A program made the position numbers and the translations under genes. A stretch of DNA of 27,614 bases from a virus: the IMG/VR virus record IMGVR_UViG_3300013126_000194, positions 1 through 27,614 of that record; one strand, written 5' to 3'. A model generated the notes under the pieces. It was given only the letters and a program-made list of their open reading frames with translations. It ran no database searches and was not told the origin of the DNA. Positions 5,619 to 22,275 of the stretch are shown piece after piece. How positions within the stretch are numbered: position 1 is the first letter of the stretch; every line of letters begins with the position of its first letter.

Positions 5619-5622
5619 TTTA

Positions 5623-5630
5623 TATAAATA
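5623..5630 (-). promoter_or_regulatory. Late-block box TATTTATA, 4 nt before the 5618 start
   Basis: Sense strand reads TATTTATA, filling most of the 12-nt gap between the fibre-like gene and its upstream neighbour. It belongs to the set of boxes at the late gene starts. Confidence 0.45.
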
Positions 5631-6671
5631 TTATAAATCTAAATTAACTAATATTGTTGTGTCAGTAACTGATGAAAGTGGTAATGGTTGGGCTAATTTA
5701 GCTACAGCTATAAGTTCATAACTATTATTGTATAAACCTATTGTTGTAACATATGGATCAAAATAAGAACCAGTTGCATAATCATATACTATACCACTAT
5801 TTGAACTTCCAGAAATTAAAGTTGGATTTTGGGAAAAATTAAATTCATTTTGTCTAATAGTACATTTATGTTGGGATTCATATATTGTAACTGTACTTTG
5901 AAATGAACAAGTTATTTTATCTGTTGTAAATAATGTATTAAAATATCCACCATATACACCTACCGGGGAAGGAGGGGTAGGAGATCCATATGTAACGTAC
6001 CCATATCCATCTAATGAACTAAGTAATTCTTCATTTATTACTGCTATTCCATGTTCATAAATTATATTCCCAATATGAAAACTTGATGTAGCTGAACTGC
6101 TGTATAAAAGATTTCCATTAGCATCATCTATAATAGTTCCATAAACGTTTTCTAAAACAAAACTTCCAGGTTTTATATATTCTCCAAATAAATTTGAAGG
6201 TATAGATAACACACCAATTAAAGAGTTAGAAGATGTAGGGAATAATCTATTTGGAGTAAGAGTATTTGATAAATAATTATAATAGTTTGTTGTATCTCTA
6301 TCACCAAATACTACATTATATTCTGAACTTGGGTATTCATTGTCTAATGTAATAGCTGTAGTCAAATCAGGTACAAAATCAGTACTTTGAAATGATGCTG
6401 TTGAAGCCGGAGAACCTTTTGGGTCTTTTAAAAAATTGGTATAGTAAAGTTCTCTAATTGAACGATAAACTAACTGTTGATTTTGGGTATCGATAATACC
6501 TGTTGGGTATGAGCCAGAGACCCATAAGGAAGAAGTAACATTTCTTCCAATATATCTATCAATTTCTACATTTGAGCCAGTAAGTTCATTTCCTTTAAAA
6601 GTAAACGATTTATTTACCTTAAAAGGTGAGACAATAACGTCAGAAGTTATGAATGGTTTGAAGATGCTCAT
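5631..6671 (-). CDS. Virion structural protein, paralogue A
   Basis: This 346-aa Ser/Tyr/Asn-rich protein is probably beta-rich and part of the tail or baseplate periphery. It has no catalytic motif that I recognise. Its last 75 or so residues (NEFNFSQNPTLISGS, TTIGLYNNSYELIAVAK, then PLPL and a terminal LVNLDL) closely match the C terminus of the neighbouring 335-aa protein, and both begin with a short segment containing DVIVS or DFVVS. The pair therefore looks like a tandem duplication with a conserved C-terminal domain, perhaps for attachment or trimerisation, and divergent middles. It lies 6 nt after the paralogue. A role in host recognition is inference from position and diversification. 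Confidence 0.65.
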   Translation of the reverse strand: MSIFKPFITSDVIVSPFKVNKSFTFKGNELTGSNVEIDRYIGRNVTSSLWVSGSYPTGIIDTQNQQLVYRSIRELYYTNFLKDPKGSPASTASFQSTDFVPDLTTAITLDNEYPSSEYNVVFGDRDTTNYYNYLSNTLTPNRLFPTSSNSLIGVLSIPSNLFGEYIKPGSFVLENVYGTIIDDANGNLLYSSSATSSFHIGNIIYEHGIAVINEELLSSLDGYGYVTYGSPTPPSPVGVYGGYFNTLFTTDKITCSFQSTVTIYESQHKCTIRQNEFNFSQNPTLISGSSNSGIVYDYATGSYFDPYVTTIGLYNNSYELIAVAKLAQPLPLSSVTDTTILVNLDL

Positions 6672-6677
6672 TCATTC

Positions 6678-7685
6678 TTAAAAATCAAGTTTTACTCTAA
6701 CTAGAGCTTCTTTTGTAAAATCTTTTAACAATGGTCTTGACATTTTAGCAACCGCTAAAAGTTCATTTGAATCATTATACATTCCTACAGTTGTGATATA
6801 AACTTGAGGAGCATTTATAAAATCATCATAAATTACCTCACCTGTTGAACCTGAAATAAATGATGGGTTTTCTGAATAGTTAAATTCACTGTTTCTTGCT
6901 CTAGCAAACACATAATCAGATGTAATTGTTTCTTCTGAGTTTAATGCAAAGGATGCTCCTGCATTGATAGCATTAAATAAACGTTGGTTATTTAAACCAT
7001 CTGAATTATTTGAGCGGCTAGGAGCAACATGGATTGATTGTGAAATTGCATATGGGTTTAATATAATAGTTCCTAAATCTGGAAATACTAAACCATATGA
7101 ACCTGATCCAGCTACATAGCCACTATTTGGTAATGATCCTGCTGTTCCACCTGATCCTGAAATTAATTGATATACACGAGATGAACCAATAAATGTATTT
7201 ACTGGGTTATCTTGTGAATCATCTGTTAATGTGATTGAACCCCCTGATCCTGAAAGTTTTAAGGCTAAAGATCCAGGAAAAAGTGATTGTTTATATCTTG
7301 CTCTTTCAATAGATAAAACCCAAAAGTTAGATCCTGTTATAACATTATTTCCTTTTCCAAAAACAAAATTAGCATTTTCATCTTCTAAAATTAATGAACG
7401 ATATTGACCATACATTGTTTTAGAGTATGAATTTCCAGGAACACTAGGATTAAACCATTCACTACCACTTCCTAATGAATCAGCATATACTATGTCAAAT
7501 TGAGTTTCTTGATCAGAAGAAGAAGTATTATATACACTTACATAATAATTTCCAGCTGAACTTGCAATCTGAGTAGATGAAGTAAAGAAAGAGGTTAGTT
7601 GAGGGTTTCCAGTTGACCATAAAGTAGAGGTAATTGAATCACTACTTACTACAAAATCTTCAGGATCAAATCTTTTAAATGACAT
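6678..7685 (-). CDS. Virion structural protein, paralogue B
   Basis: This 335-aa protein starts with SFKRFDPEDFVVSSDSITST and has a Ser/Gly/Tyr-rich, probably beta-structured body. Its C terminus (SEFNYSENPSFISGS, TTVGMYNDSNELLAVAK, PLL, ending VRVKLDF) is shared with the downstream neighbour. The shared tail, similar size and adjacency point to duplication. No enzymatic residues are evident. It follows the 218-aa structural gene after a 16-nt AT-rich gap, which is the only gap of at least 12 nt in the late block without an exact TATTTATA box. A peripheral tail or adhesin function is likely but unproven. Confidence 0.65.
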   Translation of the reverse strand: MSFKRFDPEDFVVSSDSITSTLWSTGNPQLTSFFTSSTQIASSAGNYYVSVYNTSSSDQETQFDIVYADSLGSGSEWFNPSVPGNSYSKTMYGQYRSLILEDENANFVFGKGNNVITGSNFWVLSIERARYKQSLFPGSLALKLSGSGGSITLTDDSQDNPVNTFIGSSRVYQLISGSGGTAGSLPNSGYVAGSGSYGLVFPDLGTIILNPYAISQSIHVAPSRSNNSDGLNNQRLFNAINAGASFALNSEETITSDYVFARARNSEFNYSENPSFISGSTGEVIYDDFINAPQVYITTVGMYNDSNELLAVAKMSRPLLKDFTKEALVRVKLDF

Positions 7686-7701
7686 TATATATTATTTTTT
7701 A

Positions 7702-8358
7702 TTATATTACTCTATCAATTGTAACAGGGATGGTTAATCTAGCTCCACTATCTAAACCTACAAATGTAATAGTTGTAGTAAGTGAAGTATTTGAACCAAA
7801 CAATGTATTTACAGTTGTTGCTCTTAAATTAAATTGGGAACCTATTACTGTTGTAGAAACATTAGTTCCTAAAGTAACGGTTGAATTAGCTGTTGTAGCC
7901 ACTGTTGTATTAATTCCAATACCATTAAATGTTGACATTAAACGAACATCAGCTATAGTAGCTGAGTATCCACTGGTTTCAATAGTTTGGGCATTACCTA
8001 AATAGTTTAATGTTTGAGGGGTAATTGCTAAAGAAGCTCCTTGTTTTAATGTAATTCCAGAATATCCTAAATCAAGTACAGGTAATTTAGCTGTTCCACG
8101 AGGTAAAGTAGCTAATTTGTATTTCATGATTTGAGTTTCTGTTGGAAATGCTTCTAGTAATGGCATATTTTGAATAGCTTCACCATAAAATGCAGAACCA
8201 GATGGGTGATTAGGATTATATAAAGTGTAATCTATTTCATCATCTGCTAGAGCAAATTGTGTAATTCTAAAAGAACCATCGTTTCTAGCTAAAAGTTCTC
8301 TTCCTTTTGTTGTTAATATAGCGTCAACTGTGACTACAGTATTTGAAAGGTATCCCAT
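7702..8358 (-). CDS. Conserved virion-associated protein, function unknown
   Basis: This 218-aa protein begins MGYLSNTVVTVDAILTTKGR and continues with GRELLARNDGSFRITQFAL, NPNHPSG and FPTETQIMKYKL. That N-terminal style is one I associate with structural proteins of marine myoviruses, but I cannot give a T4 equivalent. The C-terminal half is Thr/Val-rich with alternating hydrophobics, typical of a beta-sandwich. No signal peptide, membrane segment or catalytic motif is seen. The homing endonuclease gene ends 4 nt upstream, and the sequence just before this start (sense ATATATTTAAAACC, 8372-8359) resembles the late box and overlaps the endonuclease stop codon. Confidence 0.6.
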   Translation of the reverse strand: MGYLSNTVVTVDAILTTKGRELLARNDGSFRITQFALADDEIDYTLYNPNHPSGSAFYGEAIQNMPLLEAFPTETQIMKYKLATLPRGTAKLPVLDLGYSGITLKQGASLAITPQTLNYLGNAQTIETSGYSATIADVRLMSTFNGIGINTTVATTANSTVTLGTNVSTTVIGSQFNLRATTVNTLFGSNTSLTTTITFVGLDSGARLTIPVTIDRVI

Positions 8359-8362
8359 GGTT

Positions 8363-8977
8363 TTAAATATATTTGAAAATTAATTTATTTTTTAATTGTT
8401 TAGTTAAACCTTTTAAATGATTACCAATAGATCTTTCATTTAAGTTTAATATTTTGGCAGCTTCTCTTATACTAGAATATATTACTCCTGTGTTTATACA
8501 TATTATTTTTTTTGTATTTTTTCCTAACATTGATATTCTCATATTCTCAATATGAGAAGGAGTTGGTTTATATCCAAGTTTAATTTGACTTCTTAATTGT
8601 TTTTCTTCTTTACTCTGGGTTCTTCCTTTATTCCATTTTCCTCTTCCTATTATTTTGGATGAAAGTGACATTTTTTCTTTAGTTTCTTCACTATGTTTTC
8701 CTCCTTTACCATCTATTCTACAACATAGGGATGGTATATCTAGAACTTTATAATAATATTTCCAATATGTTTCTTTTTGTAAAAGTTCATTTTCATCACA
8801 TTCTTCTATAATTTCAAATGTATGATTTTCATAACCATATTTTTTTAATGAATTGTATAATTTGGTTTGACTTTTACAATATAATTTTTGATACCACTCC
8901 CATCTTTTTTTTATATTAGTACTTTGACCAATATATATTTTACCTGTTGGGGATAATATTTTATAGATTCCGACCAT
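8363..8977 (-). CDS. GIY-YIG homing endonuclease with NUMOD DNA-binding repeats
   Basis: This 204-aa protein has a canonical N-terminal GIY-YIG nuclease: GIYKI (3-7), KIYIGQS (13-19), Arg25 and Glu69 as catalytic candidates. Three NUMOD3-type DNA-binding motifs follow, near 93-110 (KHSEETKEKMS), 119-135 (RTQSKEEKQLRS) and 139-152 (TPSHIENMRISMLG). Last comes a NUMOD1 helix-turn-helix element near 158-190 (KIICINTG, then SIREAAKILNLNERSI). This is the standard design of mobile phage endonucleases such as the T4 Seg group. It is free-standing between two late structural genes, with no intron evident around it. It probably spreads by cutting genomes lacking the insertion. A 38-nt AT-rich gap upstream holds a late-type box, which could express it with the structural genes. 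Confidence 0.93.
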   Translation of the reverse strand: MVGIYKILSPTGKIYIGQSTNIKKRWEWYQKLYCKSQTKLYNSLKKYGYENHTFEIIEECDENELLQKETYWKYYYKVLDIPSLCCRIDGKGGKHSEETKEKMSLSSKIIGRGKWNKGRTQSKEEKQLRSQIKLGYKPTPSHIENMRISMLGKNTKKIICINTGVIYSSIREAAKILNLNERSIGNHLKGLTKQLKNKLIFKYI

Positions 8978-8989: not shown

Positions 8990-8997
8990 TATAAATA
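8990..8997 (-). promoter_or_regulatory. Late-block box TATTTATA upstream of the homing endonuclease
   Basis: Sense strand ATATTTATAATAAAA contains the box, 12 nt before the ATG at 8977. The same 15-nt string occurs upstream of the gene starting at 16474. Confidence 0.5.
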
Positions 8998-9015: not shown

Positions 9016-12000
9016 TTACCCAATCAACCCTTTTTCGGTAAGAAGTTTAACAAATTCATCAGTATCCTTATTTAATTTCGGAATTACGTATTCTGGGGTA
9101 ATAATGAATGAATTTGGAGATTCGCCTCCAATAGGTCTAAATCCTTCAAATATTATTTGAGAGGCATCATCTACATATCTTCTAATTAAAAAATGGTCTA
9201 AATCAAATGCTGATGAACTGGCATTGATTGGAAGATTTGTGCTAAAGTGGACTTCAATTGAACCTGTTTGAGAAATACGACCTGATCCACTGTCTTCAGG
9301 GGCAAATATTTTTCCTACTTGATATACAAGATCTTCTCTACCTTCAAATCTAAATTCATCACCGTATTGAATTGACCATGGTAATGTTATTGGGTTAAAC
9401 CCAGATTGAGATATATCAGATTGTTTAATATTAACTCCATAAGATTCAACTATTTCAGAAACTGATGAAGTTATAATGTATGGGTAATTGATTGGGTCTA
9501 AATAACCCCATATTGATCCAGTATATGCACTTGGGGGTACATATGGTGGAGTTTGTTCTACTTCAATACGGGAGGAATTAACATATAATTCTTCTTGAAA
9601 TCCAACAAGATTAGGAGAAACATCAGTACATGTTACTTTAAGTGTATATATATCTCCAACATTTAAATCAGATGGAGAAATTGTTTTGCTAATATCATAG
9701 AATGCATCTTGACCATCTTCATCATATAAAAAATTTTCTTCGGCTACTGTTGTGGTACCTTTTAATAATTCTAATCTTACGTTATACTTCATAAGTGGAA
9801 GATTTAAAATATATCTTCTTCCTGTTACACCAGCGTAAGCAGTGATTTTTAAAGAAACAGCATCATCTACAGCACCTTGGGGGACTTGATAACCACCACC
9901 TGTTAAAAATGAACTACCATAAATAGTTGAATTATAATTAATGGTGGTAGATTGAGGGAAAGGAGCAGATAATGTTATTGTACCTCCATTATATAAAAAT
10001 TTGGCTGTATAGTTTCCAACAGGGTTAGTACTTGTAGGGAGAAGACTTTCAAATAGTATCCCTTCCCAAGTTACATTAGGAGCAACACCTTTTTGAGTAT
10101 ATAAAATTGGTTCAATTCTATATCCTCCTCTGATTATATTTCTAAATTGATTATCTATACCTCCCGCACCTGATTGACCTAAAATAGAAGAATATCTGAA
10201 TCTATCTCTGGAGGAAAAATTCTGTTGAGTGTTAGGTAAAGAAATATCTGAAATATTTGGGGTAGAAATGTTTCCATCTTGATCAATTAAATATTTAATA
10301 GTAAATACAGAAGCATTCATTAATTCTGGGGAGTAACTTCCATCCATATAACCATAGGCTACATAAGATTTTAAACTTTCAACTGTGGGAAGTTTACCAA
10401 ATGTACCAATGTCACCTTTTGTCCATTTATTTAACTGTTGAGAGGTTGATTTTGAACCTTCATATCTAGGTATAGTTACACGCTTTGAAGTATAATTTGA
10501 ATCTTGTACTTTTGCTCTAGTTGCAATTCCATTTACTAATTGATTAAAATTAACAGGTTCTGTTAACCCTCTTGAATAATCAACATCCATATAATATGAA
10601 CTGTCTCTTAATTCAAATACATTATTAAATAATGGATTGAAATCAGTATTATCATAATTAGCAAATGTAATATAAGGTTCAACTATAACACTAGAACTAA
10701 AAGATGAAGTTGGAGCTATACTTTGTGTAAGTGTAAATTGAAAATTAGATGCTGAATAATCTGAATTATTAAATCCTTCTAAAAGAAAATACAATACGTC
10801 ATCATTTAATCCTGGGGTGCCAAGAAGGGTATAGAATGTATGAGTAAATCCTGCTCCCGCAACACTAGCAAAGGTATTATTATTTATTTGTTGATATTCT
10901 CCATTGGTTAATCTATATAAAGAAACTTGACCATAAGATGAAGGATCTGCACTCTTAGGATCAACTAAAAAAGACATTGAAAATTGAAGAGATACATTAG
11001 GTGTATTTTCTAAAGTAAATAATCCACTACTAGTACTAAAATAAGGGGTTCCATAGTGAGGTAAATTTCCATCTTCAGTAGTAAATCCTTGAATTACCCA
11101 TGATGCAAAATCATTAACATCTCTAAAAGTTGATCTTGAAGCAGAAACATAATAGTCTTTAATTTCTGTATTTACTCCTGACCCATTAATTGGGATTGGG
11201 TTGCCTACTACTTCATATGTGTAATATGTTGAAGATTCATTAAATGGAATAATATTATATTCAACAAATCCTGTTGTAGTATATTCTATAAGAATTTTAG
11301 ATGCATTTCCTAAAATTATAGTATTATCGTTTCCAAACTGATCAAATTTATTAATTTTTAAATATGATTTAGATGGAACTATAGATGCTGTTATTGGAAG
11401 TCCACTATAACTTATAGATTGTGCATATGGAGCTAATATTAAAATTTCACCAGGATATGGAGTGGTTTTTGAATTAAAAAATGTATCTGAAGTTAAAGTA
11501 TTTGTGTTTAATAATCCATATAATCCATTTCTATACAATATGGGGGAATATGAAGATAAAATATTAACATTAGGATAGGGTGCTGCTAAACTTTGAGTTG
11601 TAACAATCAATACAGATCCACTAAATTCACCGTTGTAAAACTCATCTTGATTATCATGCAATACAAGTACTGAACCTGAAGGGGTTTGAATGGTTTCATA
11701 CCAACTTTGAGATGTATTTAAAATAGAGTTAAATGTATCAAATACACCCCCTGTCCCACCACTAAAATTTTCTACAGTACCTGGTTCATAATCGTTCCAA
11801 GTTGGTTTTAAAGTACCTGAAATATCTAGGTCTTCCCATTCCATTTGTGGTTGTGGGTATTTATTTCTTTCAAGTAAATGTTGTTTAATTACAATTCCAG
11901 AAGCAAGACTTGTACGTGCAGGTACAAAATCTCTAATCATTTTAAATAATGAATTGTCAAAGAATTTAATTAAACGTATAAAATCTGTTAAATTGTAATT

Positions 12001-15000
12001 TGAAGTATATTTTTCAAAGTATTCATTTCGTAATTGATCTAAAGCAGGATATGTAACTGCAGAAGAAGATCTTAATCTTGGGTCACCAATAAATTCACCT
12101 ATATTAAAATATCCTAATTGGTCTACTATATCTTCATTTATCTCATTTTGTGGGGAAAAAGCTACCTCTAAGTAATTAATGTTTGGAGTATAACTTTGAG
12201 ATATGTTTACCATTTGAGATAATGACATAAATGGTGATAAAGTATTTCCTTCAGGTAATACATTATTTTCTATTCTAATTTTATCCGAAATAGTATTTCT
12301 AATACCTGCTACTGGTTGATCAGCAAATGTATATTCTACATTAGGGATAAAATTAGGTGAAGCATCATAGTAAAAGTTACTATCAGAAGCAAATGAATGG
12401 GTTGTTTGCCAAGATCCTGTTATTTTAGGATGGATTGAAATGGATGCTGTGTATTGTTCTCCACCAATTGATGCTCTAAAAGCTAATTCATTTGGTGAAC
12501 TATTTAATGAATTCCCCTCAATTGAATGAGGATTCATTGTATAATCCGTAAATACACTTTCACTTATAGAGACAGCGTAATATCTAATTTCTTGATATGA
12601 ACCAGAGAATGGGGTAAATAATCCAGAAATTGCTCCAGTATCATCATATATCCCAACATCATAAGCAGATATATCATATCCTGTTGAAGATAAAACTGAA
12701 AAACTGACAGGAAAATAACTTGTAACGGTATTATTCCAATTACTAGATACATAGGTTACAGAACTAGAAGCTTTAAATCCTAAAAGAGTTCCATTGTCTC
12801 CTCCTTCATAAATTTTATTTTGTGAATATAAAGTATAAGTATTAGAATTTTTAGTAACCATTACTGACCACCATCCTTCGTCATAAAATGGTAAATAAAT
12901 ACTTGCTGTTTGAGATGAATCTGTAATATCTGGGTAAAATGTTAAAGTAGAATATAGGTAGTATGGGTCTATTATAGAGCCTGAGTATGATCCACTAGCA
13001 TATGCTGAACCAGTGTAGGTTAAGGTAATGGCACTTCCTCCATCTCCATACCATAAACTTTGAGAATATGCAATACTAGATGTTGGTAAACCTTCAGTTT
13101 TAAATCTAAACATTAAAGTTGAAGGAACATCATTTGGGGCGTTCCAATCAGAATTTAAAACCCAAGATGAGGAAATAAAGTTACTTCCAGAGGTATTAAA
13201 AGCATAATTAAATTCATTTTGCCAATAATCCCAATCATTTAAATCTACTTTATCTTTTCCTCCATATTCATTAATCCTTAATATAGTATCAGGAATACCA
13301 TATGAGGTAATTAAAGCGCGCAAACCAGGTAAAGTACCTTTTGATTTAAGTAGATATGGTAAATTATGGTAAATACGTTTGTATAGTGATTTATTCACAT
13401 CATCTAACGGCATGTAGTTATTAGATGCTGAAATAAATTGGTCAATATATTCAAATCCAGAAGGTGTAGGTAATGATCCTGTTATATTTGGGAAAGGGAA
13501 TAAACCACCTTCAGGAGTTAAACCTAAAAATGCAGTATACAAATCATCATTGGAAAAATTATTTTGGTACAATTTAATTCCAAAATCACGAATAGCATCT
13601 GCAACTATATCTTTTGATACACCGTATTCTAAACGGTTATCATTGTCATATTTTTTGGTTATTTCTTTATAATATACCCAAATGTTATCATAATGTTGAG
13701 CTACCATTTGAACAAATAGTTCATACTGATAGTTATTTGAATCGTCTCTTAAATATTCAGGTATAGAATAAAGTAGGTTATCTTTATTTTCGTTATCATA
13801 TAATGAAGCTGAAAGTAAAAGACCACCATAGTATGGGCTAGATTCATTAGTGCTTCCTATCCATGATAGAACTGTAGGGCTATCAGATTTAGCTAATTCA
13901 TATGGTTTTTGATTAGTGGTTTTAGGCCAAGCAATAGGATTGTTTTCGTAATATAAAAAATAATCATACCCATCAAAATTAGTTATAATGTTGTCTATTT
14001 TGGATTGGTATATACTAATACTACCACTTATATCAGAATTAGTAGTAGAATTTAAAACAGATATTGAAGAAGAATATTGTTCAATTAATTGAATTTTATA
14101 ATAAAAATTTCTTAATCTAGTTTCAGCAGAACTAAAATGAATATATCCATCAAAAGTAGTATAATCTATATTTACATCAATTTCTTTTTCTTCAAGTAAA
14201 CTTGCTAATTGTTGTTGAGAACTAGTTAATGAAGTAGAAATTAAATCTGAATAGGTTAATTCAGTGGTTGAATTGTTAACTTGGTCTTTTATATTAAGAT
14301 TAAAATTAGGACCTTGAATTGATGTAGTATCATTTATTTCAAAAACAGGATCATCAAATGTTACTTGATATGCTACTGGTTCTTCAATAGTAATTACAAC
14401 CCAACATGTAGAATTTAAATCAAATTCATCTGGGAGTGGTTCGTAAAGTTTGATAAGAATTGTAGAATTAGTAGGGTCTTGGAGATCAAGAGCTATATTA
14501 TTAGCAAGTATTAAGTTGTTATCTCCAAAATTTAAATAAAAATCTACAAAATAATCACTTTCTTGTCTTTCTTGAATAAATTTATTTGATTGTTCAATTA
14601 ACGAAAGTTCATCTAATGCTGTACTGTCTAATCTAATTTCTGTTCTATCGTTTGATATTTCAGATATATAAAGTTGTTCAAGATCAGATCCTATTTTTTT
14701 ATCTAAAAAATTGTAATAAGATATATACACACCTTGATCAAATCCATTATCTACTAAAGATTGAGAAGGATCAATTACTATTTCAGATAGTTGATCAGGG
14801 TTGTTTTGAATATTTTGAAGAGTATATTGGTTAAAATTATAATCTGTTAAAAATAAATTTTTATTAAGATCATAAACAAAATATTCTATATAACTTTGAG
14901 AACTAAATGTAGTGCCAACATCAAATGAAAGTAACAAGTTTGATTCTTGTGTCTCATATGTTTGAATATCAAAATCTTGTACATTAACTTGGGTAATTTC

Positions 15001-15006
15001 TGCCAT
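9016..15006 (-). CDS. Giant virion structural protein (tail/baseplate), 1996 aa
   Basis: This is the largest gene here, one uninterrupted frame starting with an ATG in a TAATG overlap with the upstream stop. Near residues 550-585 it has LLKSKGTLPGLRALI followed by YGIPDTILRINEYGG. A leucine-rich KGT segment of this kind is reminiscent of P2 gpI-type baseplate proteins. Residues about 610-830 look like a LamG/concanavalin-like jelly roll (WWSVMVTK, then NTYTLYSQNKIYEGG). Near 995-1055 a conserved helical stretch (NLTDFIRLIKFFDNSLFKMI and VPARTSLASGIVIKQHLLER) recalls large marine-phage structural proteins. The remaining half is Ser/Thr/Tyr-rich repeats of beta character. It probably builds the baseplate edge or a long fibre base that carries the smaller adhesins encoded downstream. 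No protease or hydrolase motif is seen. Confidence 0.75.
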   Translation of the reverse strand: MAEITQVNVQDFDIQTYETQESNLLLSFDVGTTFSSQSYIEYFVYDLNKNLFLTDYNFNQYTLQNIQNNPDQLSEIVIDPSQSLVDNGFDQGVYISYYNFLDKKIGSDLEQLYISEISNDRTEIRLDSTALDELSLIEQSNKFIQERQESDYFVDFYLNFGDNNLILANNIALDLQDPTNSTILIKLYEPLPDEFDLNSTCWVVITIEEPVAYQVTFDDPVFEINDTTSIQGPNFNLNIKDQVNNSTTELTYSDLISTSLTSSQQQLASLLEEKEIDVNIDYTTFDGYIHFSSAETRLRNFYYKIQLIEQYSSSISVLNSTTNSDISGSISIYQSKIDNIITNFDGYDYFLYYENNPIAWPKTTNQKPYELAKSDSPTVLSWIGSTNESSPYYGGLLLSASLYDNENKDNLLYSIPEYLRDDSNNYQYELFVQMVAQHYDNIWVYYKEITKKYDNDNRLEYGVSKDIVADAIRDFGIKLYQNNFSNDDLYTAFLGLTPEGGLFPFPNITGSLPTPSGFEYIDQFISASNNYMPLDDVNKSLYKRIYHNLPYLLKSKGTLPGLRALITSYGIPDTILRINEYGGKDKVDLNDWDYWQNEFNYAFNTSGSNFISSSWVLNSDWNAPNDVPSTLMFRFKTEGLPTSSIAYSQSLWYGDGGSAITLTYTGSAYASGSYSGSIIDPYYLYSTLTFYPDITDSSQTASIYLPFYDEGWWSVMVTKNSNTYTLYSQNKIYEGGDNGTLLGFKASSSVTYVSSNWNNTVTSYFPVSFSVLSSTGYDISAYDVGIYDDTGAISGLFTPFSGSYQEIRYYAVSISESVFTDYTMNPHSIEGNSLNSSPNELAFRASIGGEQYTASISIHPKITGSWQTTHSFASDSNFYYDASPNFIPNVEYTFADQPVAGIRNTISDKIRIENNVLPEGNTLSPFMSLSQMVNISQSYTPNINYLEVAFSPQNEINEDIVDQLGYFNIGEFIGDPRLRSSSAVTYPALDQLRNEYFEKYTSNYNLTDFIRLIKFFDNSLFKMIRDFVPARTSLASGIVIKQHLLERNKYPQPQMEWEDLDISGTLKPTWNDYEPGTVENFSGGTGGVFDTFNSILNTSQSWYETIQTPSGSVLVLHDNQDEFYNGEFSGSVLIVTTQSLAAPYPNVNILSSYSPILYRNGLYGLLNTNTLTSDTFFNSKTTPYPGEILILAPYAQSISYSGLPITASIVPSKSYLKINKFDQFGNDNTIILGNASKILIEYTTTGFVEYNIIPFNESSTYYTYEVVGNPIPINGSGVNTEIKDYYVSASRSTFRDVNDFASWVIQGFTTEDGNLPHYGTPYFSTSSGLFTLENTPNVSLQFSMSFLVDPKSADPSSYGQVSLYRLTNGEYQQINNNTFASVAGAGFTHTFYTLLGTPGLNDDVLYFLLEGFNNSDYSASNFQFTLTQSIAPTSSFSSSVIVEPYITFANYDNTDFNPLFNNVFELRDSSYYMDVDYSRGLTEPVNFNQLVNGIATRAKVQDSNYTSKRVTIPRYEGSKSTSQQLNKWTKGDIGTFGKLPTVESLKSYVAYGYMDGSYSPELMNASVFTIKYLIDQDGNISTPNISDISLPNTQQNFSSRDRFRYSSILGQSGAGGIDNQFRNIIRGGYRIEPILYTQKGVAPNVTWEGILFESLLPTSTNPVGNYTAKFLYNGGTITLSAPFPQSTTINYNSTIYGSSFLTGGGYQVPQGAVDDAVSLKITAYAGVTGRRYILNLPLMKYNVRLELLKGTTTVAEENFLYDEDGQDAFYDISKTISPSDLNVGDIYTLKVTCTDVSPNLVGFQEELYVNSSRIEVEQTPPYVPPSAYTGSIWGYLDPINYPYIITSSVSEIVESYGVNIKQSDISQSGFNPITLPWSIQYGDEFRFEGREDLVYQVGKIFAPEDSGSGRISQTGSIEVHFSTNLPINASSSAFDLDHFLIRRYVDDASQIIFEGFRPIGGESPNSFIITPEYVIPKLNKDTDEFVKLLTEKGLIG

Positions 15007-15368
15007 TATTGTGGATTAGCTAAGGGGGTTCCTGTTTGTAATTCTATTATTTGTTTTTGAGCATCAAGTAATTCTGTTCTTAATTGAGCTATTTCAGCCT
15101 GTAGTGCTTCTATTTCTTCTTGATTGGCTTCAAAATCTATATATTCACTACTTTGTTTAATTAAATACTCATGTGAGTTAACAACTCCTAATTCCGGTAT
15201 ATCATAAAACATTTCATTATACATGTTAAAAAAATCATTTACTGTTGGTTGATTTTCAATTTGTTCATTTATAGGTTGAACTCCTAATTGAGTAAAAGAG
15301 GTATTAATTACCTTCTCATATTGTAATTTATTATATACTTGTTTATTAAATGAAATATTTTCAGCCAT
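15006..15368 (-). CDS. Small structural protein with C-terminal coiled coil
   Basis: This 120-aa protein has an Asn/Tyr-rich N-terminal half (NKQVYNKLQYEKVI, then FFNMYNEMFYDIPELG). A clear heptad-like coiled coil covers about residues 78-111 (IDFEANQEEIEALQAEIAQL and onward to IIELQ). It ends in a short Pro-containing tail. It is coupled to genes on both sides by TAATG overlaps (15368 and 15006), so it is made together with the DNRLRE-like protein and the 1996-aa protein. It could be a connector, chaperone or assembly factor for the giant protein. I do not recognise a named family. Confidence 0.6.
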   Translation of the reverse strand: MAENISFNKQVYNKLQYEKVINTSFTQLGVQPINEQIENQPTVNDFFNMYNEMFYDIPELGVVNSHEYLIKQSSEYIDFEANQEEIEALQAEIAQLRTELLDAQKQIIELQTGTPLANPQ

Positions 15369-16474
15369 TAGTTAATAACTTTAAAATAGTAATTATCATC
15401 AAATATTAAAGTAGAATTATTAATTATTGTTTTAATTAATATCTTGTAATACCTTTCAGGTTCTAATCCACTCATGTAAATATCAAAATAATTACCAATT
15501 GAATCAGAACTAATTTGAGTATATTGATCATCGAAATTAATAACAAATTCATTAGTAGCCAAGTCTTTTATAGCATAATATGAAGAAGCTGGTAAATAAT
15601 TTAAATTAGTAAATAATGAAGATGTTTGATATACTCTAGTAGGATATAAAGGACTTACATTTATGTAAAATCTATTAACACTTTCTGGGGTGAATACTCC
15701 AGGATTTTCAGCTAAAGACATTTTTAAATTTGTAGTAGTAACTGGGGTTGGGTTAATAGTGCTATAGTCTCTCCATCTAAATTCTAGTTGTGGGGGGTAA
15801 ATTGTATTAGTATCAACACTATAATATTTTAATACGGGTTGAATATCTTTATCGGGATTAAATTCTTGAGATCCAGTTAATTTAACTATAAACCCATAAT
15901 TTGGAATTGAAGAACTATACCAAGTATTTACTATATTACTTACATCTAGTTCAATATCTTTTACATCACGTAAACTAAATGATTCAGTAACCTTAAAATT
16001 AGATCCTGTATACCAGTTCCCACCCCCAACACTTACATAATTAGAATTAAATGAACTTGTAAAATAATATCCACTATTTGAACCACTTTCTAGCCAATAA
16101 CCTGAACCTGAAAGTAGAGGATAATACCAGGAAGCACCATCTGTAGTTTGAGGGGAGTCTAAATAATATCCTGTCCCGTTATTCCATTGTTGGGCTAAAG
16201 TTAATACTTCAATAGAAGTGTCAGCATTTATTCCTTCAGCGGTGGCTATAAAACTTTTAAAATATACTTTATATGGGTCACCAGATATTTTATTATTTAT
16301 AATATCTTGTATTTCCTCAGTATCAAATTGAGTTAAAAATCTTGAAGCACCAGGATTACCATCTAAATTTAGAGTATTTGTAGTTTCACAAATAGCATCT
16401 AAACCAGTGTTCATTAGGGGGTAATTGGAATATAAAGTAGTATCCTTTGTAGGAAAAATTTTATAAACAGCCAT
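15368..16474 (-). CDS. DNRLRE-like beta-sandwich structural protein
   Basis: This 368-aa protein opens with AVYKIFPTKDTTLYSNYPLM and then NTGLDA, the pattern of DNRLRE-type domains (a 'KDTTLYS...N.G' start on a jelly-roll, usually cell-surface or carbohydrate-associated). It continues with RFLTQFDTEEI, a Tyr/Gly/Ser-rich middle (SGSGYWLESGSNSGYYF), and IELDVSNIVNTWYSS, which is also typical of that domain. The C-terminal 120 residues look like a separate beta domain. It is likely a tail or baseplate-attached module. It is preceded by a 27-nt gap containing a TATTTATA box and ends in a TAATG overlap. A carbohydrate-binding role is inference. Confidence 0.65.
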   Translation of the reverse strand: MAVYKIFPTKDTTLYSNYPLMNTGLDAICETTNTLNLDGNPGASRFLTQFDTEEIQDIINNKISGDPYKVYFKSFIATAEGINADTSIEVLTLAQQWNNGTGYYLDSPQTTDGASWYYPLLSGSGYWLESGSNSGYYFTSSFNSNYVSVGGGNWYTGSNFKVTESFSLRDVKDIELDVSNIVNTWYSSSIPNYGFIVKLTGSQEFNPDKDIQPVLKYYSVDTNTIYPPQLEFRWRDYSTINPTPVTTTNLKMSLAENPGVFTPESVNRFYINVSPLYPTRVYQTSSLFTNLNYLPASSYYAIKDLATNEFVINFDDQYTQISSDSIGNYFDIYMSGLEPERYYKILIKTIINNSTLIFDDNYYFKVIN

Positions 16475-16488: not shown

Positions 16489-16496
16489 TATAAATA
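16489..16496 (-). promoter_or_regulatory. Late-block box TATTTATA upstream of the DNRLRE-like gene
   Basis: Sense strand ATATTTATAATAAAA contains the box, 14 nt before the ATG at 16474, in a 27-nt gap after the gp6/J-like gene start region. Confidence 0.5.
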
Positions 16497-16501: not shown

Positions 16502-18346
16502 TTATAAAGGAACTACTTTGCCTTTTATGTCATTATCAGGATATCTTACTTCAAAAATACTAGGATCTAATGAAGGATATATTACTTGATTTTGTGTAGC
16601 TGCAGTTATATCATATGCATATTGAGAATATCCTTGGGTTGAGCCTGCTTTATTTACAATAGAAACATCTTTTACTGTTTGAACTCCTTTAACTCTATCT
16701 AATAATATGTATAAATCTCTTAAAAATATAGGTTGATTTAATTGCCAATTATTTATATTAAAATATGTTTTTAATGCATTTATACAAGCTAATAAAACCT
16801 CATTATTGTTATATTCTGGGAGAACTATAATTTCAAAATTTACTCCTATATTGATTATAAAGGCATCTCTTATTTCTATATTATCACCAATCATTCTATA
16901 TTGGGATAAGTAAGTTCTTAGATTATTTTTTAATGTATTAGTAGCATAATCTAATTTACCTGTAGAATTTTGGGAAAGAACATATAGATTTAAGGTTTCA
17001 ATAGTTGAAACTTGGTTATCTGTTAGTTTAGGTTGTTCAATGTATGCTTTAGAAATAGCCCCATAATCAGAAGGCATACTTAAAGCTCTAACTAAATAAT
17101 CATCAGCTGTTACTGAACGTTTTTGGGAGGCTATTAATGATAAAGTATTTTGTCTAATTTCTTCTAAGGTATCTCCCCCCTTACCCCCAGAAGCAGCTTC
17201 TGGATTAGTAACTGAAATTGAATTAAAAATGTAATTTGCGGTCACTGGGTTGAGATTGGTTTGGTTAAAAGAAATAGATTCTTTAGAGATATTGTTTAAT
17301 GTATTAGCAACTGCATTTGAGCTAACTCCACCTCCTGTTAAATATCTTACTGTTAAAGTAGTATTGGAAGGTGCTATACCATATGTTCCAGTATATAAAA
17401 AATTTACAGGAGAATATGCTGCTGTTAATTTATCTTTTTTGAATGATAATCCTAATCCAACATTATTAGCATTTGGAGTTATTTCTTCATCTATATCATT
17501 TGGTGATCCTGCGCCAAATTGGATTTGGATGTTAAATAAAGAAGTTAATCGAGTACTAAATCGTCTTTGAACTTTTTTTAATTTTAATAAATATGGAGTA
17601 TCTAATCCACTATTTGGATCATTTATATTTGTATTTTTAACACTATCTAAAACCATTTCTTGCCCTAAATGATCTACTTCATACCATTTATTTCCATTAG
17701 AATCAGTAATATCTAGTATTTTAATAATATTATTTTCATTTATATTGATAGTATTAAATGGGATGGGATCTGTAAAAGTAAATGCTTTACTATTTATTGT
17801 TGCTGAAATAGCTTTTCTAGTTTTTTTTAAAAGAAAATATTGTGGAGTATTTCCTGATATTTGATATACTGAAACTTCTGTTGGGTCTTGGGAACTAGAA
17901 ATAGAAAAATCTACTTTATCTAAGGTTATAAAATTAATTCCGTTAGGAGATGCAATTTGGGTATTTTCTGGGATGTTAATAGCATAATCATAGTCTGGGA
18001 TGGTTTCTCCGCTTACTACTTTTGAAGGGACTTGTTGATAAAAATCTATATTTACTTGGGCAACTCCTGTTGTATTTGGTTTATAACCAAACATATATGC
18101 TAAGTCATATATATTATTGGTTTGTTGAGCATATTGGATAAAATTTTCTTGGAGCTGATTATCAAGATAAAAACTTAAAATATCTCCAACATACGATGCT
18201 TGTTCTATAAACATCATACCTGGGGAAGTAGGAGAAAAATCTGTATAAGTATCAGGAAAATAGGTTTTAGAATATTCTATTAATCTATTTCTAAAATCAT
18301 TAAAATCTCTGTTTAAATAATTTATATTTCTATTAATATTACTCAT
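16502..18346 (-). CDS. Baseplate wedge protein, gp6 / baseplate J-like
   Basis: This 614-aa protein, near the 660 aa of T4 gp6, has the J/gp6 pattern: an N-terminal SPTSPGMMFIEQASYVGDIL and LAYMFGYKPN, a middle of beta segments, and about residues 390-415 reading TLEEIRQNTLSLIASQKRSV followed by TADDYLVRA, the conserved helix-rich element of baseplate J proteins. The C-terminal region (YFNINNWQLNQPIFLRDLYI) is also typical. In the family this protein dimerises to form the wedge ring around the hub and transmits sheath contraction. It starts 3 nt after the gp25-like gene stop, the same order as in many contractile-tail clusters. Confidence 0.87.
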   Translation of the reverse strand: MSNINRNINYLNRDFNDFRNRLIEYSKTYFPDTYTDFSPTSPGMMFIEQASYVGDILSFYLDNQLQENFIQYAQQTNNIYDLAYMFGYKPNTTGVAQVNIDFYQQVPSKVVSGETIPDYDYAINIPENTQIASPNGINFITLDKVDFSISSSQDPTEVSVYQISGNTPQYFLLKKTRKAISATINSKAFTFTDPIPFNTININENNIIKILDITDSNGNKWYEVDHLGQEMVLDSVKNTNINDPNSGLDTPYLLKLKKVQRRFSTRLTSLFNIQIQFGAGSPNDIDEEITPNANNVGLGLSFKKDKLTAAYSPVNFLYTGTYGIAPSNTTLTVRYLTGGGVSSNAVANTLNNISKESISFNQTNLNPVTANYIFNSISVTNPEAASGGKGGDTLEEIRQNTLSLIASQKRSVTADDYLVRALSMPSDYGAISKAYIEQPKLTDNQVSTIETLNLYVLSQNSTGKLDYATNTLKNNLRTYLSQYRMIGDNIEIRDAFIINIGVNFEIIVLPEYNNNEVLLACINALKTYFNINNWQLNQPIFLRDLYILLDRVKGVQTVKDVSIVNKAGSTQGYSQYAYDITAATQNQVIYPSLDPSIFEVRYPDNDIKGKVVPL

Positions 18347-18349: not shown

Positions 18350-18754
18350 TTAAAATTGGATTATTAATTCATCATTTATATTAGAATTTAATATAGAATA
18401 TCTTAATTGAATTATTATAGTATTTTCTTCTTCTTTTTTTAATAGATTTAAAGAATTTACTATTACTTTAGGAAAATATAAAGATAATTGTTCATTAATA
18501 TTATCTTCTAAAGCACTTAAATTCCCATCATTTATTTGTTCAAATATAAAAGCACGTAGACCCCCTCCAAAATTAGGATTAAGATATCTTTCTCCAGGAT
18601 TAGTTAAAAAAAAATTAATTAAATTATTTTTTATAGCATCTTTAGTGGTAAAATTAGATATAAAAACAGCAGGACCATTTAATGGTAAATTTACCCCAAC
18701 AGCAACGTTAGGATTTAAATCAACTGGGTCTATTTGTTGGGGGTTAAAGGGCAT
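18350..18754 (-). CDS. Baseplate wedge protein, gp25-like
   Basis: This 134-aa protein, nearly the length of T4 gp25 (132 aa), belongs to the GPW/gp25 family. The signature is AIKNNLINFFLTNPGERYLN (40-59), then PNFGGGLRAFIFE (60-72), with the family's conserved NPGER and a Gly-rich loop. gp25 joins the sheath initiator to the wedge and nucleates sheath polymerisation. Its C terminus ends in a beta strand (DELIIQF). Its ATG overlaps the upstream stop in TAATG (18754), and it lies directly before the gp6/J-like gene. Confidence 0.9.
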   Translation of the reverse strand: MPFNPQQIDPVDLNPNVAVGVNLPLNGPAVFISNFTTKDAIKNNLINFFLTNPGERYLNPNFGGGLRAFIFEQINDGNLSALEDNINEQLSLYFPKVIVNSLNLLKKEEENTIIIQLRYSILNSNINDELIIQF

Positions 18755-19101
18755 TATTTAGTATTTAATAAACTCATAATTTGATCCATTCCCACTTCAC
18801 CATTGCCTAAATTACCATTTATAGGATCAGATACTTGAGGTCTAAACGACTGTTGAATATCATTTGATGTAAAACTTAAAGCTGTTTCTCCCAACACGTC
18901 TTTATATTTTTGTCTTATATCCATTGTTGGTTGGGTAAATGTAGGATTAGTAGTTGGTGGTGTTGGAGAGGTTGGAGCATATGATTCTTTAACAATTGTT
19001 TTTGGTGAACGAACAGCCTCTAAAAGAATATCTTTTAATTCTTCTTGAATTGCCTCTCGTACTGCTTCTTTAATTAATTTTTTTAATCCGTCGGTTTTCA
19101 T
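18754..19101 (-). CDS. Small late protein with N-terminal amphipathic helix and Pro/Thr linker
   Basis: This 115-aa protein has an N-terminal charged helix (LKKLIKEAVREAIQEELKDI, residues 6-25). A Pro/Thr-rich linker follows (about 42-60, YAPTSPTPPTTNPTFTQPT), then a C-terminal segment with Gly/Asn-rich turns ending VGMDQIMSLLNTK. Helical N termini of this kind in phage tail clusters often mediate assembly or chaperone contacts. It sits between a large tail protein and gp25, preceded by an 18-nt gap with a TATTTATA box 5 nt from its ATG, and its stop overlaps the gp25-like start (TAATG). No named family is recognised. Confidence 0.55.
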   Translation of the reverse strand: MKTDGLKKLIKEAVREAIQEELKDILLEAVRSPKTIVKESYAPTSPTPPTTNPTFTQPTMDIRQKYKDVLGETALSFTSNDIQQSFRPQVSDPINGNLGNGEVGMDQIMSLLNTK

Positions 19102-19106: not shown

Positions 19107-19114
19107 TATAAATA
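19107..19114 (-). promoter_or_regulatory. Late-block box TATTTATA, 5 nt before the 19101 start
   Basis: Sense strand TATATTTATAACCATATG places the box in the 18-nt gap before the small helical protein that precedes gp25. Confidence 0.5.
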
Positions 19115-19119
19115 TAAGG

Positions 19120-20148
19120 TTATTCTGCTTTTAAATTATTTTGTTGTATATAAAATACAAGTTCATCTATTAATATCTGATCAATTGATGAAAATGACCA
19201 CTCTCCTTTTAACATTACTACACCTTGTTTATTTCTAGCTATAGCTCTTCTACGTTTTAAAGAATTAGTGGTAGGTTCAGTTTCAACACCCATTTCAAAT
19301 CCATTTACATTTGTAACAACAGGAGATTCTTGTTGGGTTTGTTGTAAAGTTAAAGCTGTTAATTCACTTGAAAGTTGTTCTTGATTAGCGTCTGGGGAAC
19401 ATTGTTGGATGAGACTGTCTAATAGGTTTAAATATTGAAGAAGTTGAGTTAAAACTTGTCTAGTTAATATAAGAACTGCTAATATCCCAGCATTAGCTAT
19501 ATTTAATCTTTCTAATAAAGTATTAATTCTTTGTAAAGCTACAGGAACACTAGCAGGGACAGGGAAAGTAATTGCTAATGTTGCATTATAAGAAATTAAA
19601 AGAGAAGTAATTACACCTTGAGTTATTCCTAAATATTTAGTAGTTGAATCTATTATTTTATAAGATTTATTAATTTGTTTTACTAGTTTATTTTTACGAT
19701 TAATTAATCTAGTTAATTCCTCTGGAGAGGGGCATGTGATGTTGGGAAAATCTGATGCATTGGCTTTTCCTTTATCTATTAATTGAGATACTTTAGTAAT
19801 ACCAAAAGATGATATTAATGTTAAAGTTAAGGGTATAGCTTTTCCTTTTAAATTTATAACCAAATCAGTAAGTTTTTTTTGAGCAAAATATTCTGGTGTT
19901 TTTCCTTCTTTATTAAGTTCTTTTACTTGATCTATAGACAGTTGAGATGCTTCTATTTTATCTAATTCTAAAGCATCTTTAGTAGGTGTTAATTTAATTA
20001 CCCCTAAATCTTCTTTTATAGTACCATCTCCTTTATATGGAATTTTTTCTACAGATTCATACCCAGGAGCAGATATAGTAATAGAAGGTAAATTATTACC
20101 TTCATTTAAAGATGATGTTAATGGAATAAATACGTTTTCAGTTCCCAT
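19120..20148 (-). CDS. Tail structural protein with N-terminal carboxypeptidase-regulatory-like half-domain
   Basis: This 342-aa protein starts with MGTENVFIPLTSSLNEGNNL then PSITISAPGYESVEKI (21-36) and ends that section with DLGVIKLTP (47-55). The SAPGYE strand is the C-terminal part of a carboxypeptidase-regulatory/CnaB-like beta domain, whose expected first strands appear instead at the end of the preceding gene. The middle (about 104-123, 173-205 and 219-240) contains long hydrophobic helices without clear flanking charges, perhaps packed inside the tail rather than in a membrane. The C terminus (RRRAIARNKQGVVMLKGEWS, about 298-317) is a separate basic beta segment. It probably belongs to the hub or tail tube end. 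The split domain suggests fission or frameshifting. Confidence 0.6.
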   Translation of the reverse strand: MGTENVFIPLTSSLNEGNNLPSITISAPGYESVEKIPYKGDGTIKEDLGVIKLTPTKDALELDKIEASQLSIDQVKELNKEGKTPEYFAQKKLTDLVINLKGKAIPLTLTLISSFGITKVSQLIDKGKANASDFPNITCPSPEELTRLINRKNKLVKQINKSYKIIDSTTKYLGITQGVITSLLISYNATLAITFPVPASVPVALQRINTLLERLNIANAGILAVLILTRQVLTQLLQYLNLLDSLIQQCSPDANQEQLSSELTALTLQQTQQESPVVTNVNGFEMGVETEPTTNSLKRRRAIARNKQGVVMLKGEWSFSSIDQILIDELVFYIQQNNLKAE

Positions 20149-20149
20149 A

Positions 20150-20632
20150 CTATCTAATAGTTGCTTTAATTGGTTTACCTGTTTGAGAATTTATTACTGT
20201 TGCTTTAGCTATAACACTTTGATTAGTTTTATTTAAAAAATTTAATCTAACTTCGTTAGATGCTTCTTCAATGGCTTGAAATAATATATCTTTAGCTTTA
20301 ATTTTATCTTGTTTAGATAAAGGAACTTTGTTTAATTCACTTTGAGGAAAATTATTATCAATGAATTTTTTTGATTTAAAAATAAATGCACCAACTCCTA
20401 TAACATCTGTATTTTGAATCATGTGGTTGAGAAAACCAAAATTCATATTTGAAGGGATAAAACGTTTATTATTGATAAAAATTTGGAGGGGATTTTCAAT
20501 ATCATTAATGTCATTTAAAGTTATAGTTACATTAACACTTGGAAGCTTTTGTTTTATAAAGGCATCAAATTTGGATTTAAATGTAAACCAAACATTATTA
20601 AGAAAAGTTGGATCTAAAGTTGGATCTGCCAT
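20150..20632 (-). CDS. Tail-associated protein ending in the first half of a beta domain
   Basis: This 160-aa protein has an aromatic N terminus (FLNNVWFTFKSKFDAFIKQK), a central NMNFGFLNHMIQNTDVIGVG and a Lys-rich helix. It ends in VIAKATVINSQTGKPIKATI just before the TAG. That last segment reads as strands A-B of a carboxypeptidase-regulatory-like domain (the 'TGKPI.AT' turn). The next gene begins 1 nt later in the +1 frame with what looks like the rest of the domain. The gene starts 1 nt after the spike gene stop, so it is translated with the spike and may form part of the hub. No independent family name can be given. Confidence 0.6.
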   Translation of the reverse strand: MADPTLDPTFLNNVWFTFKSKFDAFIKQKLPSVNVTITLNDINDIENPLQIFINNKRFIPSNMNFGFLNHMIQNTDVIGVGAFIFKSKKFIDNNFPQSELNKVPLSKQDKIKAKDILFQAIEEASNEVRLNFLNKTNQSVIAKATVINSQTGKPIKATIR

Positions 20633-20633
20633 A

Positions 20634-21908
20634 TTAACTAGTTTTTACAAAATTTGATTTAATACTATCTAATTGAGCTAAAGTTTTATTTAAATTGATA
20701 GAAGCAGCAGAAGCCACAGGAAGTAAAGTTGGATCTATTTTAGATAATGCTGGTGATTGTAATTTTTCTGAAAGATTAATGAGTTCTTTTATTATTATTT
20801 CTAGTAATTGGGTTGTTTGATTTCCTAGTAAAACTGGTTCTTCTGCATTTTTACTTCCTAATCTAATATCAGATCCATCAATGTAAATTTGTTTTGCTCC
20901 TATATTAACACTGTCATTTGAAGATAAACCAACTGATTTTTGCCCGCTTATTAATACACTATCTTTTTTAGCATTTAATACAATTCTATCTGAATTGAGA
21001 ATTATTTGGGGATTAATATATAAGGATGGGGTTGTAGGAGATGTTCCATCACTATATGATAAAGATAAGAAATTTTCATTTGCTATACTAAATGGAATTT
21101 TTTGTTTGGATGTTAAATAAATTGAAGATAAATCTTTATTTAAGTCCTCAGTTATAGGAATCCATCCTCTATCATCTGTTAGTTTTTCGGGTTGACCATT
21201 TCGGATAATCAAAATTGGATCCCCATTATCACCAGATTCAGACCAATTATTTTTCTTTTTACTTTGTGATTTTGCAGTACTTCCAAAACGAATACTTTGC
21301 CCATATCTTCCTTCCATTAATGAATCACCCATAAAAGGCATTAATGGTTTTATATCTGCTTTTTCTACAAAAGTATTTTGAGATGGATTTATTGGACTAT
21401 TTAAATTTATATCAGTAGATCCATCTTCAACTCTTCTTATAGAACCACTAGCTTGGTAATCGTTAAGTTGGTTATTATTTGTGATTGGTAAATTAGGATA
21501 GGCGTCATGGTGGGGATGATTCCAAATATTTAATGGTTTTAAATAAAAATATTGTTCTGCGCTTGAATAACTTCCTAAATTTTGGCTAGGTAAAGAAAGG
21601 AGTAGAATTACTTCATTTACTAAAGGATATGTTTTTAATTGAGCATCATATGGAAGAGCAAAAGAATCATTAGAAGTTGAAGATGTATCTGTTTTATTAA
21701 CAAATTCATAATATATAGCACCTATCCCATTCCATTGCCCAACTAAATTAAATTTAGGATGATTATCATCTAAAACTATATCAATAACCCTAGCAGGAAT
21801 AATTTTATAAGTTAAATTATCTATTTTTTGAGCTAATAAATTATTAATTGGATTTTTATCATTTACTTTAGGAGTAAATGTAGATATTCCTTGTTTAAAG
21901 ATAGCCAT
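20634..21908 (-). CDS. Baseplate hub / central spike protein, gp5-like
   Basis: This 424-aa protein has an N-terminal OB-fold-like region (about 30-130, IIPARVIDIVLDD onward to YFYLKPLNIW). EGRYGQSIRFGS (199-210) is a motif that recurs in gp5/VgrG-type proteins of marine myoviruses. From about 290 to 365 there is a short-period beta pattern (INPQIILNSDRIVLNAKKDS, then VLISGQKSVGLSSN, IYIDGSDIRLGS) expected for the triple-stranded beta-helix spike. The C-terminal 60 residues are helical. T4 gp5 (575 aa) has a lysozyme domain between OB fold and spike; no such catalytic E...D/T arrangement is visible here, so penetration may rely on another enzyme. Its ATG overlaps the upstream stop as TAATG. 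Confidence 0.8.
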   Translation of the reverse strand: MAIFKQGISTFTPKVNDKNPINNLLAQKIDNLTYKIIPARVIDIVLDDNHPKFNLVGQWNGIGAIYYEFVNKTDTSSTSNDSFALPYDAQLKTYPLVNEVILLLSLPSQNLGSYSSAEQYFYLKPLNIWNHPHHDAYPNLPITNNNQLNDYQASGSIRRVEDGSTDINLNSPINPSQNTFVEKADIKPLMPFMGDSLMEGRYGQSIRFGSTAKSQSKKKNNWSESGDNGDPILIIRNGQPEKLTDDRGWIPITEDLNKDLSSIYLTSKQKIPFSIANENFLSLSYSDGTSPTTPSLYINPQIILNSDRIVLNAKKDSVLISGQKSVGLSSNDSVNIGAKQIYIDGSDIRLGSKNAEEPVLLGNQTTQLLEIIIKELINLSEKLQSPALSKIDPTLLPVASAASINLNKTLAQLDSIKSNFVKTS

Positions 21909-22246
21909 TATTCTTTAGGTTTAAACTTTTGAACCTCGCTTAGTAATTGTTGTTTTTCCTCTTCAGTCATACCGAAACTATCTTCTTCAGATTTTCCAGA
22001 AGCTAAAGCACGTTGAACAATAGTAGCCATTTTAACCAATTGTTCATCATTTTTAATACCTAATTCCATATATTCCTTTATTAAAGGAACTATTAAAGTA
22101 GCATCACCAATATCATTAATTAATGGTTTTAATTCACCTATTAAAGCTGTGATTTGGGCTTCTTTTTTCTTTTGATTATCGTAAATTTCTTTGAGAAGAT
22201 CAGAAAACTTTTTTTTACCAAAAATATTTGAATCTAAATTACTCAT
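21908..22246 (-). CDS. Small helical late protein, function unknown
   Basis: This 112-aa protein is mostly helical and highly charged (KKKFSDLLKEIYDNQKKKEA, then ITALIGELKPLINDIGDATL, LVKMATIVQRAL and TEEEKQQLLSEV). It has no membrane segment, cysteine pair or catalytic motif. It is the first gene of the late structural block after the gp55-like sigma gene, with a 29-nt gap holding two overlapping TATTTATA boxes. It overlaps the spike gene start by TAATG. A chaperone or tail-assembly role for the spike is possible from position alone. Confidence 0.55.
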   Translation of the reverse strand: MSNLDSNIFGKKKFSDLLKEIYDNQKKKEAQITALIGELKPLINDIGDATLIVPLIKEYMELGIKNDEQLVKMATIVQRALASGKSEEDSFGMTEEEKQQLLSEVQKFKPKE

Positions 22247-22260
22247 AATATTATTTTGGG

Positions 22261-22274
22261 TATAAATATAAATA
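22261..22274 (-). promoter_or_regulatory. Double late-block box at the head of the structural block
   Basis: Sense strand TATTTATATTTATA holds two overlapping copies of TATTTATA (plus-strand 22261-22268 and 22267-22274), 14 nt before the ATG at 22246. This is the first gap after the gp55-like sigma gene and a natural place for a late promoter. Confidence 0.55.
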
Positions 22275-22275
22275 A

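Follow-up and report, generated by a model that had tools for sequence, protein, structure and literature searches.

A two-base variant of the T4-type late promoter box probably serves a phage group with a remote gp55-like sigma factor

Late promoters of Escherichia phage T4 are read by the sigma factor gp55 and activated by the sliding clamp gp45 through gp33, with transcription starting 6 nt past the box. They consist of TATAAATA at positions -13 to -6, with nothing at -35 and an AT-rich stretch downstream (PMC2988020, PMC1524935). Structural work on T4 shows A(-12) stacked on Y97, A(-9) in contact with N13 and H95, and A(-8) bonded to T99 (PMC7892883). The late promoter of Aeromonas phage Aeh1 reads CTAAATA from -12 (PMC1524935), and T4-like cyanophages such as S-PM2 possess a T4-type box with a weakly conserved -13 position (PMC2988020, PMC1524935).

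The stretch analyzed here (the window, 27,614 nt in full) is a 27.6-kb viral contig with 29% GC that carries gp6- and gp25-like baseplate genes. T4-related late promoters have been described mostly for hosts using Shine-Dalgarno (SD) sequences. Bacteroidota make little use of SD sequences, and their housekeeping promoter is composed of TTG at -33 and TAnnTTTG at -7. The late-block genes of the window are located on the minus strand, so that the sense form of the box studied here is TATTTATA (Table 1). The late block also contains, at 9016-15006 (-), a gene for a 1996-aa protein without PHROG or Pfam match.

Table 1. Putative promoter boxes and associated genes in the window
Feature	Position	Strand	Remarks
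Putative gp55-like late sigma factor, 245 aa	22276..23013	-	Region-2-like domain and C-terminal helical extension; candidate reader of the box
Putative late box TATTTATA (sense)	5623..5630	-	Ends 4 nt from the start codon of gene 4680-5618; immediately behind the stop codon of gene 5631-6671
Putative late box TATTTATA	8990..8997	-	Ends 12 nt from the start codon of gene 8363-8977 (product homing-endonuclease-like)
Putative late box TATTTATA	16489..16496	-	Ends 14 nt from the start codon of gene 15368-16474
Putative late box TATTTATA	19107..19114	-	Ends exactly 5 nt from the start codon of gene 18754-19101
Putative late box TATTTATA	22261..22268	-	Ends 14 nt from the start codon of gene 21908-22246
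Second octamer copy, overlapping, upstream	22267..22274	-	Same site as 22261..22268
TATTTATA within gene 25086-25538	25386..25393	-	
gp6-like baseplate wedge protein	16502..18346	-	Query for finding relatives
gp25-like baseplate wedge protein	18350..18754	-	PHROG 261, E 2.5e-20; next downstream of gene 18754-19101

Six late-block gaps measure at least 12 nt (12, 16, 38, 27, 18 and 29 nt). Five of them contain sense TATTTATA, and the 16-nt gap 7686-7701 is devoid of it. The initial annotation had placed the box in five of six such gaps, 4 to 14 nt from the ATG, and its coordinates agree with ours. When the gaps were shuffled internally 100,000 times, the box appeared in three of the six at most, a value reached 18 times; in 20,000 shuffles, any single 8-mer was common to no more than four gaps. 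Compared with shuffled gaps, a check proposed along with the annotation, the box is thus far more frequent (five versus at most three). All five intergenic boxes extend to ATATTTATA, and the 15-nt string described as common to two sites is indeed found in the gaps above 8977 and 16474 (ATATTTATAATAAAA). The number of copies had to be corrected. Five intergenic copies and one intragenic copy on the plus strand had been recognized, but the overlapping copy at 22267-22274 was overlooked, as were two copies on the other strand at 16294 (inside gene 15368-16474) and 16750 (inside gene 16502-18346). The total is therefore nine, seven plus-strand and two minus-strand. The overlapping copy is missing from most relatives displayed and is probably incidental. 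The intragenic copy is probably due to chance; coding sequence of related genomes contains the octamer at a background of about 0.3 to 1.4 copies per 10 kb. Taken over the full window, the octamer shows no over-representation (9 observed, shuffle mean 11.3), and its non-random aspect is place and orientation.

One scan of viral contigs yielded 526 relatives with a gp6-like protein. The nearest isolated relative found was Flavobacterium phage immuto (NC_055915), whose gp6-like protein is 46% identical. The portal (Gp20), major capsid protein (Gp23), sheath and tube encoded by its 160-kb genome are T4-like, whereas the DNA polymerase belongs to family A. Of the 323 gaps in 80 related viral loci, 163 contained TATTTATA versus approx. 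11 expected, and together with ATATTTATA it stood out among the gap k-mers by an order of magnitude. In contrast, TATAAATA remained at background (14 versus 15.7 expected), so that the group falls outside the T4 type in the strict sense of the consensus. Gaps were also counted genome by genome, so that homologous copies cannot inflate the totals. Boxed gaps amounted to 22, 18 and 12 in the related genomes G001, G002 and G003 and to 23 in immuto, compared with 1.2-1.7 expected from Markov models. Mel-JY01, the second annotated phage in which the box recurs, displayed 10 versus 1.1 expected. In four of these five genomes TATAAATA was at background, the exception being G001 with 8 versus 2.5 expected; in co-directional gaps sense TATTTATA exceeded TATAAATA. 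LR756508 (191 kb examined) possesses a related sigma-like gene, yet its gaps lack TATTTATA and the search gave no clear box.

Upstream regions of orthologs could be compared at three of the window's five sites, and unique relatives were counted. The box was kept in 71 of 71 relatives at 16489..16496, mostly 12-15 nt from the ATG, and in 59 of 61 at 22261..22268 although the flanks vary. At 19107..19114 it was kept in 80 of 81 relatives, 79 of which had a spacing of exactly 5 nt. The start codon of the corresponding gene is credible because the first residues of the protein are conserved among relatives. In general, the flanks drift at orthologous sites, and the spacing is mostly 11-16 nt at two of the three. 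The box at 8990..8997 was kept in one relative and absent from another, and no orthologous site for 5623..5630 was present among the fetched relatives. Within-genome logos of 24 sites (immuto) and 58 sites (G001 and G002) displayed the motif [A/C]TAT[T/G]TATA followed by A and no -35 element. The region downstream of the box is A-rich, and adenines dominate 4-6 nt after it; in immuto the fifth base is A in 92% of the sites.

Like the T4 late promoter, the box is an eight-base AT sequence at a -10-like position that lacks a -35 element, is followed by AT-rich DNA and precedes structural genes, in phages coding for a sigma-like factor that has a region-2-like domain. Of the three bases flipped into T4 gp55 pockets, A(-12) and A(-8) are retained. 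Unlike T4, the window group carries T for A at -10 and -9 and tolerates G at -10. The same script applied to the T4 structural block detected TATAAATA in sense before late genes, mostly 21-28 nt from the ATG. The median distance in that block was 26.5 nt and is thus longer than in G001 and G002 (13 nt) or immuto (16.5 nt). The initial annotation had regarded the box as a reversed T4 promoter, which is misleading. The outer TAT..ATA equals its own reverse complement, so that TATAAATA and TATTTATA differ at -10 and -9 alone, two adjacent middle positions. A common orientation with two substitutions is simpler and makes a reversal unneeded; near-palindromy explains the reversed look. Aeh1, whose diverged late box is read by a diverged gp55, is a precedent, and the window box would thus represent a variant of a kind already known. 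However, Aeh1 alters -13/-12 and keeps the TAAATA core, whereas the window group keeps -12 and alters -10/-9. Cyanophage promoters differ from the window box in that they retain the central AAA. In the open-access literature searched, no earlier report of a TATTTATA late box was found.

The distribution of the box among gene classes was followed in immuto, whose late blocks we delimited from the annotation. The box or its G variant occurred in 18 of 34 late-block gaps compared with 8 of 72 others (p = 7e-6), which bears out the enrichment before structural rather than early genes that had been suggested as a check. The early motif of this phage showed the reverse pattern (0 of 34 late-block gaps, 22 of 72 others). 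In immuto, boxes lie upstream of the genes for terminase, portal, sheath, tube, hub and tape measure, and in G001 upstream of two sheath genes, tube, fibre and head-tail adaptor genes; none of 10 G001 genes behind the other motif of that genome had a structural match. G001 harbors two adjacent, different tail sheath genes (L098:4584-6287 and L098:6334-8100) with one late box each. The small early genes of the same genomes mostly lack the box and display other motifs instead. In G001-G003 they are preceded by GGAAT-N20-TCGTATATT. The form GGAAT-N20-TTTCGTATATT is very strong (24 of 112 G001 gaps versus 0.1 expected) and was located in G001, G002 and G003 (L090-L104, L114-L120; e.g. L093:4481-19359). 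G001 and G003 look nearly identical at these loci. The motif is reminiscent of the -35/-10 pairs of ECF-type sigma factors (GGAA.../CGTA) and may constitute an early or middle promoter class. Between 60.9 and 76.3 kb of NC_055915, immuto early genes exhibit AGTTG...TATATTTAGGTATCAATAATT, a host-like promoter with an added conserved downstream stretch. In the window, TTG-N20-TATATTTT at 27005-27064, upstream of the early gene 26816-27004 (minus), is a possible host-type promoter.

The candidate reader of the box is longer than T4 gp55 (245 versus 185 aa) and carries a C-terminal extension. Three lines of evidence agree with the gp55-like gene noted in the initial annotation, namely a profile-profile match, a search with the PHROG late-sigma family and a weak similarity in fold. 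Using hhalign, its family (P0001) matched the T4 gp55 family remotely (probability 79.9%, E 1.4e-5, 97 columns) from the N-terminus through region 2. The score decreased to 14.4% with close relatives alone; 17 other window families, serving as negative controls, all reached at most 0.4%. The PHROG late-sigma search matched this gene only. Among seven related genomes, PHROG_234 gave one match each in G005, G006 and immuto (E 0.002-0.008), the immuto match being the ortholog of the window gene. The sigma-like proteins of immuto and Mel-JY01 are 44% and 39% identical to that of the window. Direct PHROGs and Pfam scans provided no name for the gene; the best single Pfam match, Sigma70_r2, was below the cut-off (E 0.067), and T4 gp55 itself scored 0.087. 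The link required profiles because tblastn with T4 gp55 returned no Flavobacterium phage among the matches listed. The AlphaFold model is weak (pLDDT 69, pTM 0.40), and in a PDB fold search with it the highest-ranking entries were for the most part sigma factors, without any significant match (best E 0.065). Residues 147-245 comprise helices at 173-187, 197-207 and 213-237, which might correspond to a helix-turn-helix or to what is left of a region 4. A gp45-like sliding clamp (PHROG 223) was detected in G001 (G001:C1:109952-110569, E 2.7e-7) and G003 (G003:C1:80832-81449, E 2.0e-7), and none was detected in immuto, G002 (perhaps incomplete), Mel-JY01 or LR756508. Unlike in T4, the clamp is thus found in some relatives only.

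The equivalent of T4 Y97 is Y in 34 of 34 window-family proteins. The equivalent of N13, the -9 contact, is Q in all 34, and that of T99 is G, S or Q. F86 is kept in 31 of 34, and N13, R57 and T99 are changed. As a correlation, with residues paired via a remote profile alignment, these contacts fit a kept -12 and a changed -9. A replacement of H95 by Y or F as cause of the base change was dropped, as F is likewise found in cyanophages whose boxes are of the TATAAATA type.

A real promoter might instead be read by a host sigma factor, possibly together with a phage activator. TATTTATA and the Bacteroidota -7 element TAnnTTTG have TAnnT in common, the identification of the sigma gene is remote, and the clamp was not found in immuto. 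However, the logos of the boxed sites lack both the -33 TTG and the TTTG end, whereas the early promoters of immuto show TTG...TATATTTAG and resemble the Bacteroidota host promoter. Moreover, immuto and Mel-JY01 share the box as well as the related sigma-like protein. We consider recognition by a host sigma factor unlikely.

The distances between box and ATG bear on the idea that AU-rich UAUUUAUA in the mRNA recruits ribosomes to late starts in a host without Shine-Dalgarno sequences. The box is located a few to approx. 25 nt from the ATG, the related hosts are Bacteroidota, sparing users of SD sequences, and the spacing of one site is fixed at 5 nt in almost all relatives. On the other hand, none of 439 starts with a gap below 12 nt has a box in the 60 nt upstream, although these genes are translated too. 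In larger gaps it was present in 64 of 90 (12-19 nt), 70 of 77 (20-29 nt) and 21 of 56 (30-49 nt), and in few beyond. The box is absent from most early genes of these phages, and the spacing is variable elsewhere (11-16 nt at orthologous sites, 1-33 nt within immuto). In Mel-JY01, the most informative case, the box is kept at a median of 33 nt, with SD-like GGAG/GAGG stretches between box and ATG. A role as ribosome recruitment signal is therefore highly unlikely. The distance seems to track the leader needed by the host and not the box itself, as the long spacing of Mel-JY01 and T4 contrasts with the medians of 13 to 16.5 nt in the SD-poor group.

Alternatively, UAUUUAUA could be the site at which an endonuclease cuts polycistronic late mRNA. 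RNase E-type enzymes commonly target AU-rich single-stranded RNA, and many boxes reside inside same-strand gene arrays. However, terminator-like (intrinsic) hairpins directly precede 12 of 90 boxes compared with 19 of 489 box-less starts (p = 0.001), and upstream RNA would have ended there. A near-fixed sequence is ill-suited to a loosely specific nuclease, the box is mostly limited to late genes, and convergent gaps, of which there are few, contain none. Processing is hardly plausible on these grounds. Finally, a chance origin in AT-rich gaps of 29% GC DNA, for which the lack of enrichment over the whole window might speak, has a negligible probability and was rejected on the basis of the same-gap shuffles and the Markov expectations in five genomes, along with strand asymmetry and orthologous footprints.

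Position, orientation and conservation of the box, the class of genes behind it, the missing -35 element and the presence of a sigma-like gene are observations. We interpret the box as very probably the late promoter of this phage group, of T4 type with the core TATTTATA replacing TATAAATA, and read by the gp55-like protein. Of the three readings offered initially, a new late-promoter form is thus well supported, whereas a translation-start signal and an mRNA processing site are disfavored. In the proposed mechanism, the gp55-like sigma factor would bind the host RNA polymerase core and recognize [A/C]TAT[T/G]TATA at the bacterial -10 position without a -35 element. Transcription would begin at the A approx. 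5-6 nt past the box, and any activation coupled to the clamp would be an addition to this scheme. Repeated boxes would act as internal late promoters within the same-strand array of structural genes. The sequences TATTTATA, TATGTATA and TATAAATA were named as template variants for comparing box recognition.

In Bacteroidota-type members the box is 3-25 nt from most start codons, so that late mRNAs would carry very short leaders or none. If the start is T4-like, 5-6 nt downstream, boxes 4-5 nt before the ATG would start transcription at the ATG itself. Leaderless mRNAs are predicted for gene 4680-5618, with its box at 4 nt, and for gene 18754-19101, with its box at 5 nt, in the latter case from the spacing common to 79 of 81 relatives. 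A further suggestion, which we put forward tentatively, is that the recoded promoter co-evolved with the diverged gp55 in phages of SD-poor Bacteroidota, and that its position 4-5 nt from the ATG renders some of the late mRNAs leaderless by design, which would couple promoter position to the mode of translation initiation of the host.

With the TATTTATA box as late promoter, an abundant phage group, with 526 related gp6 loci from a single scan of viral contigs, would use a two-base box variant together with a remote gp55. For the gp55-DNA structure this would represent a natural specificity swap involving positions -9 and -10 and residues N13 and T99. Through the close spacing of box and ATG, promoter position would be tied to translation independent of SD sequences, and late mRNAs are predicted to be leaderless. 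As a practical use, the box may mark late transcription units in Bacteroidota phage genomes, in which most genes are unnamed.
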